A stretch of DNA of 51,325 nt. Source: a virus. The first letter of the stretch is position 1, and each line of letters opens with the position of its first letter. The notes below the pieces were generated by a model that searched no databases, had not been told where the DNA came from, and worked only from the letters and a program-made list of their open reading frames with translations. The stretch lies in IMG/VR virus record IMGVR_UViG_3300028595_000018, positions 1-51,325 of that record; one strand, written 5' to 3'. The translations under genes and the position numbers were made by a program. This document shows positions 1-51,325 of the stretch, one piece after another.

Positions 1-96
1 TGCTATGTAATATGGCAAACCTTGTTTCGCCTATCAGATGCTATGTAATATGGCAAACCTTGTTTCGCCTATCAGATGCTATGTAATATGGCAAAC
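1..96. repeat. 38-bp tandem repeat at the window edge
   Basis: Two complete identical 38-bp units (1-38, 39-76) are followed by the first 20 bp of a third (77-96), after which the sequence diverges. Each unit contains GGCAAAC...GTTTCGCC, which can fold into a short bulged hairpin. There are no spacers, so it is not a CRISPR array. The array starts at base 1, so more copies may lie outside. It could be an iteron set, a terminal repeat, or an assembly artefact at a contig end. Confidence 0.85.
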
Positions 97-639
97 ATTT
101 AGTCGTAGCATGCCGGCAAACTGCCACCGACAGTATGACAATGATTTTTTACACTCTTCATCGTCAATCAATAAACACAATATAACACATACTTGGTTAA
201 ATTGCAACAACTTATTGGTTGATATCGACCAACTATTTTCTAACACGCTGTTATCATTCAATTTTTCACCTTCAATAGTTAATGGTTGATATTGAACAGT
301 CGAGTGATTGCAATACAGCAAATCTATATCACGTATATACCTTTAAAACGCATAAGAATAGCCTTTAAATTGATGTTTAAAGTATACCCTATATGGTACT
401 ATAATGAATTTTTAAAGGCTCTTAAAATGCTATTTAAAGGCCGTATAACATGAATTATCATTTTATCTATATTGAAAAGATTTATACAGGGATTTTCTTA
501 AGGGATAGGTGAAAAATAGCTTGACAAGTCTTTACAAGATTGATAAATAAATGGTATGTCAGGAATCCAATTTAAAAAAAAGTGTGTATAATATGTAAAT
601 CTCTGGATCGCTCCCCCTGGATCGCTCCACCTCACAAAA
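97..639. other. Gene-free left-end region with TTTAAAGG repeats
   Basis: No convincing gene is present; the open frames at 38-321 on both strands run into the tandem repeat and lack a ribosome site. Five copies of CCTTTAAA or TTTAAAG(G) in both orientations lie at 340-347, 362-369, 376-382, 411-418 and 433-440. A near palindrome (TTGGTTGATATCGACCAA) lies near 212-229. A 12-bp direct repeat (CTGGATCGCTCC) occurs at 603-614 and 618-629. The repeats suggest protein binding sites, function unknown. Confidence 0.5.
521..549 (+). promoter_or_regulatory. sigma70-like promoter facing right in a gene-free region
   Basis: TTGACA (521-526), 17-bp spacer, TAAATA (544-549). The -35 is perfect. No gene follows on the plus strand, so it could produce a short non-coding or antisense transcript, or be a chance match in AT-rich DNA. 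Confidence 0.35.
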
Positions 640-5308: not shown

Positions 5309-5433
5309 TTCACGCGTGAAGCATCACACTGAAATATTTCCACATGAAATCTCACAAGATACAATTCAAAATTAATGTAAGAGAATATCCAATATACTAC
5401 TATTGAAGCGTATAGGGAAAGATATCTCTTGAT

Positions 5434-5615
5434 GATACACTTATAAAAGATTGCAAAGGAATGGTAATAGGGATACCATTGTGGGACATAGTGTAAGATA
5501 TCTCTTATTGATACAATTGAAAGTGTATCACCAAGTGTATTGTTAAGAGACCACTACCATGATACACTTATGATATAATGCAAGGGAAGAGTAATAAGGA
5601 TACAATGGTGGGACA
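5434..5615. repeat. Diverged ~56-bp direct repeat
   Basis: Copy one (5434-5489) and copy two (5561-5615) both run from GATACACTTAT to TGTGGGACAT / GGTGGGACAT and share most bases between. The spacer holds a hairpin (GATAC...GTATC, 5510-5529). AGATATCTCTT occurs both before copy one (near 5420) and in the spacer (near 5497). Possibly part of an origin. Confidence 0.7.
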
Positions 5616-6083
5616 TTGGCAAGGATATTGTCATTGCGTTACTATTAGGATATTTTGCAAAGACCGATAAGGGCGTTACAAGGGTTACTGGCTGGTTAAA
5701 AGGTCAAAAAAACAATTATAAGATATTGGTGTTCCATCGTGGATCTTTAGAAAGTGTACCGCCTTCTGTTTACAGAGTAAAGAGCATATGAAATGAGAAT
5801 CTTTAGGATGGTTCTTTAGGAAAAGCCTCCAGGAAGGTATACTGCCAAGTTCTTTAGAAAGGATCAAGTAGGATATTTTGTGATATGTTACCAAGATATT
5901 TTGATAATAACCTGTTGTTGACTTTTCATAAAAAATACATATATTATATAGGTGGTAGATTACATATAACTCTGTATAATTTAATACATAAAAATATGAA
6001 ATGGTTATACTGTAAAAATACACTATATACGTTTACCAAAAAAGCTTCAAAAGGTGCATAAACAAAGGGAATTTTAACAATTC

Positions 6084-23759: not shown

Positions 23760-23981
23760 TGAAATACCCTTTTTGGCTCTCTTTTATTGCTCGATTTTTG
23801 GGCCTACTGAAATTGGCGGAAAAGCCTGTTATTGAAGACTTATCAGCAATCAGAAAGAGGGCCAAAAACAGAGCAACACTAAATAGGACTTTTAGACATC
23901 CCAATCTAAATCTCATTGAAACACTTTTTGTGGTGAATACACGGTCACTGTATATAGCAACCGTGTATTAAGGGCTACTGG
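23760..23981. other. Structured non-coding segment bounded by direct repeats
   Basis: No leftward gene fits here, unlike the rest of this arm. CTAAATCTCATTGAAA with a similar tail occurs at about 23750 and again at about 23914. Between them lies a 20-bp inverted repeat (23787-23806 with 23857-23876, 17 of 20 paired, 50-nt loop). Just after, a perfect 10-bp stem (AATACACGGT / ACCGTGTATT, 23936-23945 and 23960-23969) has no T-run. A plus-strand frame (23759-23971) crosses it without a ribosome site. It could be a MITE-like insertion or a structured RNA. Confidence 0.5.
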
Positions 23982-33021: not shown

Positions 33022-33054
33022 AATATAACCTCCATGTTTATTGTCATTGAAGGT

Positions 33055-33083
33055 AGCTTACCAAACACAAATATTAATGTCAA
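33055..33083 (-). promoter_or_regulatory. Leftward promoter (TTGACA-N17-TAAGCT)
   Basis: On the minus strand AATTCTTGACA (33078-33083), 17 bp, TAAGCT (33055-33060), 34 bp before the first leftward gene. Confidence 0.6.
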
Positions 33084-33102
33084 GAATTATTTTAATAGTT
33101 TA

Positions 33103-33131
33103 GATAGAATGATCATTCTAAAGTTGTCAAG
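33103..33131 (-). promoter_or_regulatory. Leftward promoter with a perfect palindromic operator
   Basis: On the minus strand TTGACA (33126-33131), 17 bp, TCTATC (33103-33108). TAGAATGATCATTCTA (33105-33120), a perfect 16-bp palindrome, fills the spacer and overlaps the -10, a classic repressor position. Confidence 0.55.
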
Positions 33132-33439
33132 GCTACCACTAAAAAAATATTCCCTTTAAAATCAAGGGTTTACAAGATAACCTCTTGACAAGTAATGTTG
33201 GCATGCTTATTGTAATATTAAGGGTTGCTTAACAAGAATGCTACTTGCTTTTGCAGTCTCATTTTTGCATATTGAAGTTTGCACTTATTAATAAATAATA
33301 TTTAAAAAATAAAAAATAAATCAATAAGATTGCAGTATGCATACTTCAGTATGAAGATTGCAGTATACAGATTGCATCTTGAAGTTGTATTCTACAGTTG
33401 CATCCTTAGGCTTTCCTTTGTTGCTGCTATCTATATCTA
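33105..33439. repeat. Left arm of a ~335-bp inverted repeat
   Basis: Pairs with 34513-34845. The inner ~230 bp is nearly identical in the two arms apart from a short length difference; the outer ~100 bp is diverged but keeps the promoter and palindrome positions. Within the arm are recurring TTGCA(T/G) motifs, GTATGCATAC and the promoter boxes. There is no gene inside. Confidence 0.85.
33185..33213 (+). promoter_or_regulatory. Inward promoter of the left repeat arm (TTGACA-N17-TATTGT)
   Basis: TTGACA (33185-33190), 17 bp, TATTGT (33208-33213). It reads right through the rest of the arm toward the 33593 gene. Confidence 0.55.
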
Positions 33440-33530
33440 TACTACCTACTACCCACCTTAAAGTCCGCTATACTCATTTTCTTTTCTTTTTTCTTAATTA
33501 TCTCTATAAGTACATCAAAAATACCAATAC

Positions 33531-33558
33531 TTGACAAAATTGTAATAATGGTTATTGT
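33531..33558 (+). promoter_or_regulatory. Rightward promoter (TTGACA-N16-TATTGT)
   Basis: ATACTTGACAAAATTGTAAT, with -10 TATTGT at 33553-33558, 35 bp before the 33593 start. The same 20-bp string (from 33528) recurs upstream of the XkdF-like gene at 48127. Confidence 0.6.
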
Positions 33559-33592
33559 AGATACAATTATAATCATTTAATGAGACAGGAAG

Positions 33593-33805
33593 ATGAATGT
33601 ATTAGAAGATTTAGATATGTGTAACGAGTATAATGTTGCAGAAGATTTAAGTAATCTGCTACCAACAGATATAGCGTATCTTAGAAGCAGGTATGATAAA
33701 GCTTGCGGTGCTTTACGTTGTTTGTGTTGTGATAAAATACTACCAGATGATTTCGAACATAGCATATGCGATGACTGCTATCTTGAAATTACGTGTGTTT
33801 ATTAA
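33593..33805 (+). CDS. Small zinc-ribbon protein
   Basis: 70 residues: a helical N-terminus, then CLCCDKILPDDFEHSICDDC, a four-Cys zinc ribbon. The start follows GACAGGAAG. First gene of the cassette between the inverted repeats and next to the putative small terminase; it might be a DNA-binding regulator of the module, unproven. Confidence 0.65.
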   Translation: MNVLEDLDMCNEYNVAEDLSNLLPTDIAYLRSRYDKACGALRCLCCDKILPDDFEHSICDDCYLEITCVY

Positions 33806-33830
33806 CGTGTTTACTAACGTGTTTATTAAA
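33795..33830. repeat. Three 12-bp tandem repeats
   Basis: GTGTTTA(T/C)TAA(C/A) at 33795, 33807 and 33819, spanning the end of the zinc-ribbon gene and the gap before the next. Confidence 0.8.
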
Positions 33831-33853
33831 ACAACAGAAGAGGATTGGGGGAT

Positions 33854-34192
33854 ATGAGCAGACCAAGTGGCACAACAAAAGAATACACTATTGCCAACAA
33901 AACAATCGATCAAGGCTTGAAGCTTGAAGAGCGGCTTATTAGGCTTGTACCAAAGGCAATTAAGGTGTACGAAGATATTATGAATGATAAGGATATTCCT
34001 GCTGTCGATAAGCGGGTGCTTGCTGATAAGATTATAGGTAGTGCAAGGGATCTCTATAATACAAGAATTGATGGCCAGCATCTTACACTTGACGAGATTA
34101 GAAGAATCAAGAGCGGTGCAGGAACAAACCAACAAAGTAAACAATCAAACATTATCAGCTTTAAATATACAGGAACAGATGGTGAGGATTAA
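33854..34192 (+). CDS. Putative small terminase subunit
   Basis: The ATG MSRPSGTTKEYTIANK at 33854 follows TTGGGGGAT; an in-frame TTG at 33845 is less likely. 112 residues, basic N-terminus and helical middle (LIRLVPKAIKVYEDIMNDKD, VDKRVLADKIIGSARDLYN) like short phage TerS proteins, which bind packaging DNA. It is separated from TerL (43575) by 9 kb, so the call is moderate. Confidence 0.5.
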   Translation: MSRPSGTTKEYTIANKTIDQGLKLEERLIRLVPKAIKVYEDIMNDKDIPAVDKRVLADKIIGSARDLYNTRIDGQHLTLDEIRRIKSGAGTNQQSKQSNIISFKYTGTDGED

Positions 34193-34515
34193 TGGATTTA
34201 GATCATTGGATGTTTGGTGTAATACTGCTACCATTGCTTGCTAATTTGGTGAAGGATAGTGTATCGAGGAAATGGCAATGCTGGAAGGTATACAGGAACA
34301 GGCTTTTTAATCTCGGTGATTATTGCATACTAACAAATCCTGGTAACGGGGAAGAAGCAAAGGTTAAGATACTGAGATACAGTTACAAGCTATTTTCTGA
34401 TGTGGATCAAGTTGTGGAAGTAGAATATGAAGACAAAGACAGAGAGTTGTTTTATCTGCTTGATTGGGGTAGGATGAGAAAGAAAACTCCATATAAAGTA
34501 GACAATAGAATGTAG
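34192..34515 (+). CDS. Membrane-anchored hypothetical protein
   Basis: 107 residues, overlapping the previous stop. One hydrophobic helix (WMFGVILLPLLANLV) followed by a soluble beta-rich domain (GDYCILTNPGNGEEAKVKIL). Its 3' end touches the right inverted-repeat arm. Function unknown. Confidence 0.55.
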   Translation: MDLDHWMFGVILLPLLANLVKDSVSRKWQCWKVYRNRLFNLGDYCILTNPGNGEEAKVKILRYSYKLFSDVDQVVEVEYEDKDRELFYLLDWGRMRKKTPYKVDNRM

Positions 34516-34845
34516 ATATAGATAGCAGCAACAAAGGAAAGCCTAAGGATGCAACTGTAGAATACAACTTCAAGATGCAATCTGTATATTGAAGTATGCA
34601 TACTGCAATCTTATTGATTTATTTTTTATTTTTTAAATATTATTTATTAATAAGTGCAAACTTCAATATGCAAAAATGAGACTGCAAAAGCAAGTATCAC
34701 ACTTGTAAAGCACGCTTGAAGAGCACCCTTAATATTACAATAAGCATGCCAACTGATTTGTCAAGAGACTATTTTCTAAGTAGTTGATTTCAAAGGAAAT
34801 AAATTTTCACTCTAACCCTTGACAACTTTAGAACGATTATTCTAA
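34513..34845. repeat. Right arm of the ~335-bp inverted repeat
   Basis: Reverse complement of 33105-33439, with the inner end starting inside the last codons of the 34515 gene. It carries an inward and an outward promoter at the same relative positions as the left arm. No gene in 34516-34895. Confidence 0.85.
34737..34764 (-). promoter_or_regulatory. Inward promoter of the right repeat arm (TTGACA-N16-TATTGT)
   Basis: On the minus strand TTGACA (34759-34764), 16 bp, TATTGT (34737-34742). It points leftward into the cassette, antisense to its genes in the present orientation. Confidence 0.5.
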
Positions 34846-34847
34846 TC
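34820..34847 (+). promoter_or_regulatory. Rightward promoter with operator in the spacer
   Basis: TTGACA (34820-34825), 16 bp, TCTAAT (34842-34847). TAGAACGATTATTCTA (34830-34845) is the diverged counterpart of the left-arm palindrome. It drives the lysis-type and structural arm starting at 34896. Confidence 0.6.
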
Positions 34848-34895
34848 AAATGATTATTCTATTTCAAGACAGACTGAGAAAAGGAAAGTAAGAAT

Positions 34896-39036: not shown

Positions 39037-39585
39037 ATGTCATACACAAATTACTATCTTAAATTCAATGATGAAAATCAATGCAAACTTTTCCACGATC
39101 CTGAAAACAACATTGCCATTGACGCAACAGCAGTGTCAGTGATCGGCACGGTCTATGTCCCGACAGGCACTATGCTGACAGATGATGAAGGCAATGAATA
39201 TTCCGAGAAAGAAGCAGCAGAGGGGTACTATCTGAACATCAGAACCAAGAAACCGCTACCATCAGAACTTGAGTCTTTTCTCTACACACCAGCCGAAGAT
39301 TTTCCAATACCGAGATGGGGCACTTCGCAAAATACGCCATCGGTAGATACATCTCTTAAAGTACCAAAAGGCGACATCATGGCAATGCTCTCAGTAGATT
39401 CACTCGCGGCAGTCATTGGATGGATGAGGGCTGAGGCTGATAACTATGCGCTTGCATTTCATGAGTATTTCAAAGCGCATGATCAGTTCAAAGTTAAAGA
39501 TCCTGTATTTGTTCAGTTTATTGCGCTATTGGAATCGCTTGGGCATATTACGGAGACGGAGAAAGATGCGATACTTGCTCTTTAG
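39037..39585 (+). CDS. Fibre-associated hypothetical protein
   Basis: 182 residues. N-terminal beta region (YLKFNDENQCKLFHDPENN), C-terminal helices. Similar to small proteins found after fibre genes (assembly or chaperone type), unproven. AAGGAATATATAAA upstream. Confidence 0.6.
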   Translation: MSYTNYYLKFNDENQCKLFHDPENNIAIDATAVSVIGTVYVPTGTMLTDDEGNEYSEKEAAEGYYLNIRTKKPLPSELESFLYTPAEDFPIPRWGTSQNTPSVDTSLKVPKGDIMAMLSVDSLAAVIGWMRAEADNYALAFHEYFKAHDQFKVKDPVFVQFIALLESLGHITETEKDAILAL

Positions 39586-40024
39586 TTTATTTTTTTTGCT
39601 GCCGGGATGTGTTGGCACGGCTGATTACTATGCAAGCAAAACAGCATATTATAATGCTCAATCTGCTGCCCAAGTTGCTTATATCCAAGCCGCAAACAGA
39701 CCTATTGCAGAAATGACAGCTCCAGATGGGACTCGTTTTGTCGTTAATAATACGGCAATTCAAGCGCCAAGAATTCATCAAGCGAACAGCCCTATTGTGG
39801 ATGGAATGAAAGTGGTTCTAAATTCCACTCCAGTAGCTATTTTATTCGGCGGTTGGGCAGCAAAAGAGATCATTCAACACAGTGCAGGGACTCTCATCAA
39901 CAATGGCGATGGATCGATCAGTTCAAACTCTGGCAACACTTCGACTTTTACCAACGGCGACACTGATAACAGCACATCAACGACAGATGATCATACAACA
40001 CACGATATCAACGTGGGGATGTGA
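39566..40024 (+). CDS. Phage lipoprotein
   Basis: Start MRYLLFSLFFLLPGCVGTAD overlaps the previous gene by 20 bp; LPGC is a lipobox with Cys15. 152 residues; the mature part is Ala/Gln/Asn-rich and then Ser/Thr/Asp-rich. A lipid-anchored outer-membrane or periplasmic protein: candidates are a spanin or a superinfection factor. A longer frame (39446) has no ribosome site. Confidence 0.7.
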   Translation: MRYLLFSLFFLLPGCVGTADYYASKTAYYNAQSAAQVAYIQAANRPIAEMTAPDGTRFVVNNTAIQAPRIHQANSPIVDGMKVVLNSTPVAILFGGWAAKEIIQHSAGTLINNGDGSISSNSGNTSTFTNGDTDNSTSTTDDHTTHDINVGM

Positions 40025-48100: not shown

Positions 48101-48129
48101 TTACAATTACTTGATAAGAATTCCGATAC

Positions 48130-48158
48130 TTGACAAAATTGTAATTAATGATTATATT
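48130..48158 (+). promoter_or_regulatory. Rightward promoter (TTGACA-N17-TATATT) with inverted repeat
   Basis: ATACTTGACAAAATTGTAAT followed by TATATT (48153-48158), 46 bp before the 48205 start. The first 20 bp are the same as at 33528. An 11-bp perfect inverted repeat, TAATTACAATT (48098-48108) and AATTGTAATTA (48137-48147), brackets the -35. This may be a middle- or late-gene promoter. Confidence 0.65.
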
Positions 48159-50441: not shown

Positions 50442-51325
50442 ATGGATAAAATGGTTTACAATATTTCTAAAGAACTTGGTGTTGTAGAGGGTAGCCCTTG
50501 GCAACTTCAGGATATCACTGAGAGCATTACAACTCATCAAGTTACGCCGGGACTTTTGACTGCTCTTTTGAATCCTAAAAAGATCTATAACATGACTGAC
50601 ACCTTTCGGTATGATGCTCTTGATTATACTCAGCAGCTTCCTGTTGGTAAAGGTTACAGTATGCGTGGAGAGGCTAATCTTACTACTGATAAGCCTTATC
50701 AGAAACATTTTGCTATTCCTTCTTTTGGGCTTATGTTTAATGCTCTTCCGAAGGATTGGGCAGGTATGCGTAGGTTTGGTACTTCTAATGAGGTTAAAAC
50801 CGAGGCAGATGTTATCGCAGAACTTCAGATGAAAGCTAACAAAGCTTGGACACTCTTTACTGAGATTGGTATGGCTCAGCTTCTTACTGAAGATAGCAAC
50901 TACATTGCAAGTGGCCCATTTACAGAGTATGACTTTTATGAGGACATCACTGGTGGCTCTCGTGGTTCTGCTGTTGCTATGGAGCTTGATGATGATACAG
51001 CAAATCATATGGCAATCATGAGAGAAGAAGTAGATAAACTTCGTGATGAGTGCGAGAAAGCTGGTGTCACGTACACTGGTTTTGACTGCATCTGTGGTAA
51101 TACTACTTTTAATCAGCGTGTGCTTGTAGAAGAAAATACAGGTCTTGCAAGAGAAATGCGCCAGTCTCTTGATATTGCATCAGAAGAGATTCCTATGTCA
51201 TCTTTCAATACTCCGGGTTCTTTTCAGTATGCTAACTTTGTTGGTGCTCGTGACGGTATCCGTTATATTAACTACGGTGCTGGTATTACAGGTACTCCAA
51301 TGATCGGTGACACTGAGGCGTATCT
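50442..51325 (+). CDS. Major capsid protein (partial, 3' end outside)
   Basis: The frame begins MDKMVYNISKELGVVEGSPW and remains open to the window end (294 codons). It resembles lambda E-type capsid proteins: QQLPVGKGYSMRGEA (about 67-81), then helical spine and a C-terminal GIRYINYGAG. Follows decoration protein by 16 bp; GTAAGGGAG is the ribosome site, 11 bp from the ATG (M4 at 50451 is an alternative). Confidence 0.8.
   Translation, partial: MDKMVYNISKELGVVEGSPWQLQDITESITTHQVTPGLLTALLNPKKIYNMTDTFRYDALDYTQQLPVGKGYSMRGEANLTTDKPYQKHFAIPSFGLMFNALPKDWAGMRRFGTSNEVKTEADVIAELQMKANKAWTLFTEIGMAQLLTEDSNYIASGPFTEYDFYEDITGGSRGSAVAMELDDDTANHMAIMREEVDKLRDECEKAGVTYTGFDCICGNTTFNQRVLVEENTGLAREMRQSLDIASEEIPMSSFNTPGSFQYANFVGARDGIRYINYGAGITGTPMIGDTEAY

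Follow-up and report, generated by a model that had tools for sequence, protein, structure and literature searches.

A three-copy intergenic element in a phage map of about 80 kb, with two copies inverted around a small gene cassette: a candidate replication origin with embedded early control

The window, i.e., the whole stretch of viral DNA analysed here (51,325 nucleotides), holds a 33-kb leftward block (1-33 kb), which encodes ribonucleotide reductase, exonuclease, thymidylate synthase, methylase, RNA ligase and others, and a rightward block (35-51 kb), which encodes lysis, head protease, terminase and portal proteins. Transcription diverges between the two blocks, and at this point, as described in the first-pass annotation, two inverted arms enclose three ORFs. 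The arms are the left (L) and right (R) copies of an element of ~350 bp. The features of the locus are listed below in window coordinates.

33105-33439, plus strand: left copy L of the ~350-bp element, from blastn and local alignment with the right and third copies
33105-33120: perfect 16-bp palindrome TAGAATGATCATTCTA, operator-like, the same in L and in the third copy
33125-33130, minus strand: outward -35 TTGACA of L, within a 17-nt block (33116-33132) invariant in all three copies
33185-33213, plus strand: predicted inward promoter of L, TTGACA-17-TATTGT
33273-33362: iteron-like TGAAGWWTGCA sites of L, at 33273 (plus), 33338 (minus) and 33352 (plus)
33285-33321: 37-bp A/T-only tract of L, a candidate DNA unwinding element, within a 69-nt invariant block (33280-33348)
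33403-33437: 35-nt invariant block at the inner end, TCCTTAGGCTTTCCTTTGTTGCTGCTATCTATATC
33531-33558, plus strand: separate promoter-like site between L and ORF 1, TTGACA-16-TATTGT, similar to 48116-48155
33593-33805, plus strand: cassette ORF 1, 70 aa, with zinc-ribbon-like cysteines (CLCCDK...ICDDC) and no Pfam or PHROG match
33854-34192, plus strand: cassette ORF 2, 112 aa, modelled at low confidence with two central helices
34192-34515, plus strand: cassette ORF 3, 107 aa
34513-34844, minus strand: right copy R, inverted, starting at the stop codon of ORF 3
34590 (plus) and 34655 (minus): iteron-like TGAAGWWTGCA sites left in R
34617-34653: 37-bp A/T-only tract of R
34737-34764, minus strand: predicted inward promoter of R, TTGACA-16-TATTGT, the spacer one base shorter
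34819-34824, plus strand: outward -35 TTGACA of R
34829-34861: imperfect palindrome TAGAACGATTATTCTA (34829-34844) and a second half-like site (34846-34861), 17 bp outward

The arms had been described as reverse complements of each other, and while their coordinates stand, the likeness is not perfect. The results from blastn indicate that L (33105-33439) and the reverse complement of 34513-34844 share 84.4% identity over 347 columns (E ~1e-110), and the local alignment score is 446, as against a maximum of 38 among 200 shuffles. The right arm carries a 12-bp insertion, and a 14-bp indel leaves extra bases in the left arm only. Identity between L and R is 80% in the outer half (33105-33225) and 96.5%, the 14-bp indel aside, in the inner part (33241-33439), which includes the longest perfect match (107 bp). 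Mismatches in the outer half are clustered away from the promoter blocks (permutation P = 0.005), and the invariant runs of this part take in the promoters and part of the operator.

An inward promoter, TTGACA...TATTGT, had been proposed for each arm and was found in both (L at 33185, R at 34764), where it matches 10 of the 12 sigma-70 consensus positions. Predicted by consensus match, it recurs with a spacer of 16 or 17 nt in all three copies of the element, and a 28-nt block that covers its -10 region (33197-33224) is invariant among them. The outward promoter held up in part: its -35 TTGACA is present in both arms, and the 17-nt invariant block joins it to half of the operator, but the -10 is weak and differs between copies. 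Similarly, the palindrome proposed for each arm is perfect on the left (TAGAATGATCATTCTA) but has two mismatches on the right (TAGAACGATTATTCTA). The conserved promoter elements in both arms bear out the earlier description of matched two-way modules at the divergence of transcription. The arms form only weak hairpins (-2.6 to -6.7 kcal/mol), and the terminator scan returned no strong terminator in them but one weak hairpin, in L only. A structured RNA in the inward transcript was also considered and is not favoured, because the z-scores are only -1.1 to -1.8 and there is no Rfam match. Beyond the arms, a 40-bp promoter-like repeat (87.5% identity) precedes both cassette ORF 1 (33517-33555) and the gene at 48148 (48116-48155).

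The labels previously given to two of the cassette products found no support in the family searches: the "small terminase" (ORF 2) has no significant family match, and the "membrane protein" (34192-34515) is without family support. The AlphaFold model of the ORF 2 product has a pLDDT of 55, which is too low for the fold to be named, and protein searches returned no close relatives of this product or of the terminase.

A search of the viral collection with a 23-base inward-promoter probe returned one match, the contig IMGVR_UViG_3300028595_000051 (28,981 bp; here G001), which holds a third copy of the element (G001:8604-8955) that is 88% identical to the left arm. Dovetail overlaps are present at both ends of the two contigs. 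Window positions 51139-51325 correspond to G001 28981-28795 (187 bp with one mismatch, 99.5%), and window positions 1-99 correspond to G001 103-5 (99 bp at 99%, inside a tandem repeat). Based on these overlaps, we conclude that the window and G001 together make up a single circularly closed map of ~80 kb, or else are parts of two nearly identical strains; the contigs were compared and never joined. The left contig junction falls within a 38-bp tandem repeat that separates convergent gene blocks, and transcription converges there with terminator hairpins on both sides (window 651 and G001 186, each on the minus strand of its own contig). The rightward block runs on into G001, with tail genes followed by the third copy and then by primase-helicase, family-A polymerase and ligase genes. 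The replication proteins encoded by the phage include these three and a 5'-3' exonuclease. The first gene after the third copy encodes a WYL_2 domain. No tRNA genes were found.

The third copy is ~37 kb from the arms and flanks no inverted cassette. Since it belongs to the same map, the element is a three-copy module of which only two copies flank the cassette, and every copy is intergenic, at a border of gene blocks. Two further observations concern the surroundings of the third copy. At L004:8484-8548 (G001), upstream of the WYL_2 and replication genes, is a strong intrinsic terminator (-17.5 kcal/mol) with an overlapping promoter, TTGACA-17-TATAAA, whose predicted start is inside the hairpin, an arrangement that resembles a promoter-terminator composite. 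Beside the third copy, the gene at L004:8960-9493 is a paralogue of window 39446-40024 (~61% amino acid identity in the aligned part), and it has a lipoprotein-like start followed by one in-frame stop that splits the gene.

Comparison of the three copies revealed a mosaic. In the outer half, L groups with the third copy (94% vs 80% with R), while in the inner part it groups with R (96.5% vs 90% with the third copy). The three-way breakpoint is at 33241/33244 and was reached in none of 20000 permutations. The mosaic implies that the copies have swapped sequence in the past, via gene conversion or crossing over.

The longest block invariant in all three copies, 69 nt (33280-33348), comprises the A/T tract and the repeats on either side of it. 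L and the third copy differ at 1 of 96 positions in 33265-33360, compared with 27 of 237 elsewhere (P = 0.0009). At 37 bp each, the three A/T-only tracts of the element exceed every other such tract in the two contigs (the next longest is 25 bp), although they are copies of one another and not independent events. Among 100 simulated 80-kb sequences (Markov, with the dinucleotide make-up of the window), the longest A/T run was 23 on average and in no case above 30. The A/T tracts of the element also contain the least stable 50-bp stretch of their contig (-48.0 kcal/mol), but with windows of 80-100 bp the lowest stability is found outside the arms. The tract lies 70-84 bp past the inward -10. 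The motif TGAAGWWTGCA occurs exactly six times in the window, five of them inside the arms, and the third copy has only one exact site. The cumulative GC-skew, summed piece by piece, has its minimum for the whole map at window position 33530, between the arms, and its maximum at the convergent contig junction; this minimum is confounded and is weak evidence, because the skew follows gene direction here. As a separate observation, a tail-region gene in G001 (L004:10073-11139) contains seven 156-bp direct repeats, each of which includes a stretch, CTTTTCCTTTGTTGCTG, similar to the invariant block at the element's inner end.

The block best conserved in the arm comprises the A/T tract and the repeats beside it, not the outward promoter, and this points to an origin-type role. 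We propose, at what we consider even chances, that the three-copy element is a replication origin present in several copies, primed by transcription and with embedded early control. A host sigma-70-type promoter would start a transcript of which the first ~65 bases precede the stretch of the genome that melts most easily. At this tract the RNA could form an R-loop; alternatively, a protein that binds the TGAAGWWTGCA sites might help to melt the duplex. The opened tract could then be the loading site for the phage primase-helicase and family-A polymerase, while the palindrome and the adjacent outward -35 would couple early transcription to the origin site. The inverted pair, located at the divergence of transcription and at the skew minimum, would launch forks both ways, the third copy lies between tail genes and replication genes, and gene conversion would keep parts of the three copies alike. 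Origin activity, R-loop priming and protein binding at the element are what we infer from these features. No initiator gene was named by Pfam or PHROGs among the proteins scanned, many of which are small and without a family. To our knowledge, origins have been mapped in only a few tailed phages.

Several of the same features would also fit an element that acts in transcription control only, namely a duplicated operator/promoter cassette through which one repressor or activator co-regulates separate units. Its role would then be comparable to that of mobile promoter cassettes, and the A/T tract would be a transcription or silencing feature. We regard this explanation as the main rival, possible but less probable. 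The two promoters, as predicted, would fit a purely transcriptional role equally well. As for the origin reading, the identity of a block among copies could be explained by concerted evolution alone. The 17- and 28-nt promoter/operator blocks are invariant in all copies, the arm mismatches lie away from them (P = 0.005), L and R face two divergent gene blocks, and the first gene after the third copy carries the WYL_2 domain. However, the longest invariant block is made up of the A/T tract and its neighbouring repeats rather than a promoter, and the outward -10 is unconserved. Furthermore, the intrinsic terminator at 8520-8484 of G001, with its own overlapping promoter, lies between the outward promoter of the third copy and the replication genes, and thus the module would not simply drive these genes.

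The cassette had been suggested to be flippable, such that homologous recombination between the arms inverts the three genes and the matched promoters keep them expressed either way. The 107-bp identical stretch in the inverted arms and the mosaic make a RecA-type inversion possible, and an inversion would leave an inward promoter facing the cassette in either orientation, since both arms have one. Past recombination between copies stands, but the element does not belong to the cassette alone: its third copy is ~37 kb away and unpaired around any cassette. Neither contig has a resolvase/invertase domain (PF00239), which was detected in the control genomes, or a tyrosine-recombinase domain (PF00589), for which the controls also worked. 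The spacer of the right inward promoter is shortened to 16 nt, and gene conversion explains the mosaicism equally well. Because the contig was assembled through both arms, one orientation is probably dominant; no flipped form was seen in the collections searched, which hold only one assembled phage of such kind. A flip switch as the function of the locus is in our opinion improbable.

A functionless small transposable or recombination-scattered repeat is just as improbable, for although the copies are dispersed in unrelated gene contexts and the same phage has a second dispersed repeat (23762-23901 and G001:22927-23066), no terminal inverted repeats or target-site duplication are apparent at the ends of the element, conservation is limited to discrete blocks and every copy is intergenic at a gene-block border. 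The second repeat (140 bp, 96% identity; L007:7927-8066 in the partner contig) has inverted ends, GGTGTCTGAAAATCCA and TGGGACTTTTAGACATCC, and resembles a small, non-coding transposable element; in the window its flanks repeat CTAAATCTCATTGAAA, the start of the next gene included. A 58-bp direct repeat (83%; 5432-5489 and 5559-5616) occurs in a gene-poor stretch near 5.5 kb.

If the element is an origin, the arrangement has a further implication. The inverted repeats of herpesviruses bring about isomerisation of the genome. By extension, this phage might have three homologous origins, kept alike by gene conversion, of which two lie inverted around a small cassette where both transcription arms begin; the genome might then isomerise through recombination between these two. 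We think this fuller scheme rather unlikely as a whole. The readable triplicated element (operator, two promoters, A/T tract and flanking repeats), together with the exchange between its copies, nevertheless offers a concrete test of several homologous origins in one genome, and the inverted pair offers a test of whether such pairs drive isomerisation.

Searches for DNA relatives of the arm in phage records and plasmids returned none beyond chance A/T matches. Exact 22-23-mers from three blocks had the partner contig as their sole match in viral_contigs, and two of them had no match in genome_contigs. A protein search with the polymerase returned the partner contig and distant contigs. Vibrio phage 11895-B1, which is distant and has a related polymerase, has no comparable inverted repeat, and its longest A/T run is 25. 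A search for a single-subunit RNA polymerase gave no match here and likewise none in the control. The parts of the element are of known kinds, and no related element was found in the collections searched.

Among known systems, the promoter early stem-loops (PeSLs) of T4-type phages are far shorter than the arms. Named in PMC4503421, which cites Arbiol 2010 and Comeau 2014, they resemble the element in being dispersed intergenic regulatory repeats with sigma-70-type promoters and recombination between copies. Whereas a PeSL combines such a promoter with a terminator stem-loop, the arms lack a strong terminator stem (hairpins of -2.6 to -6.7 kcal/mol) and carry two opposed promoters and an A/T tract, and the element has only three copies. 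The inverted repeats of the C-segment of phage P1 are long. This invertible tail-fibre segment (PMC6906374) is comparable to the locus as a gene segment between inverted repeats. However, P1 has the invertase Cin, whereas no resolvase-family invertase of the Cin or Gin (phage Mu) type is encoded by either contig here, and the cassette genes are not recognisable as tail fibres. The origin of the PLE satellite is iteron-type and bound by RepA (PMC7145576). It shares with the element repeated short motifs beside an A-rich tract in a non-coding region, and in the window five of the six exact sites are clustered in the arms beside the A/T tracts. In contrast to PLE, no RepA_N-type initiator was named here, and each copy has one to three short sites. 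The closest parallel to the proposed origin mechanism is provided by oriF and oriG of phage T4, which combine a promoter and a downstream DNA unwinding element (DUE) with R-loop priming (PMC4412123). Here, too, a promoter aimed into the element and an easily unwound tract downstream are predicted, there would be several origins per genome, and the replication proteins are phage-encoded. The promoter here, however, is a plain sigma-70-type one rather than a middle-mode promoter, and the candidate origins, known from sequence, are copies of one element with two of them inverted, a triplicate arrangement that is unusual as far as we know.
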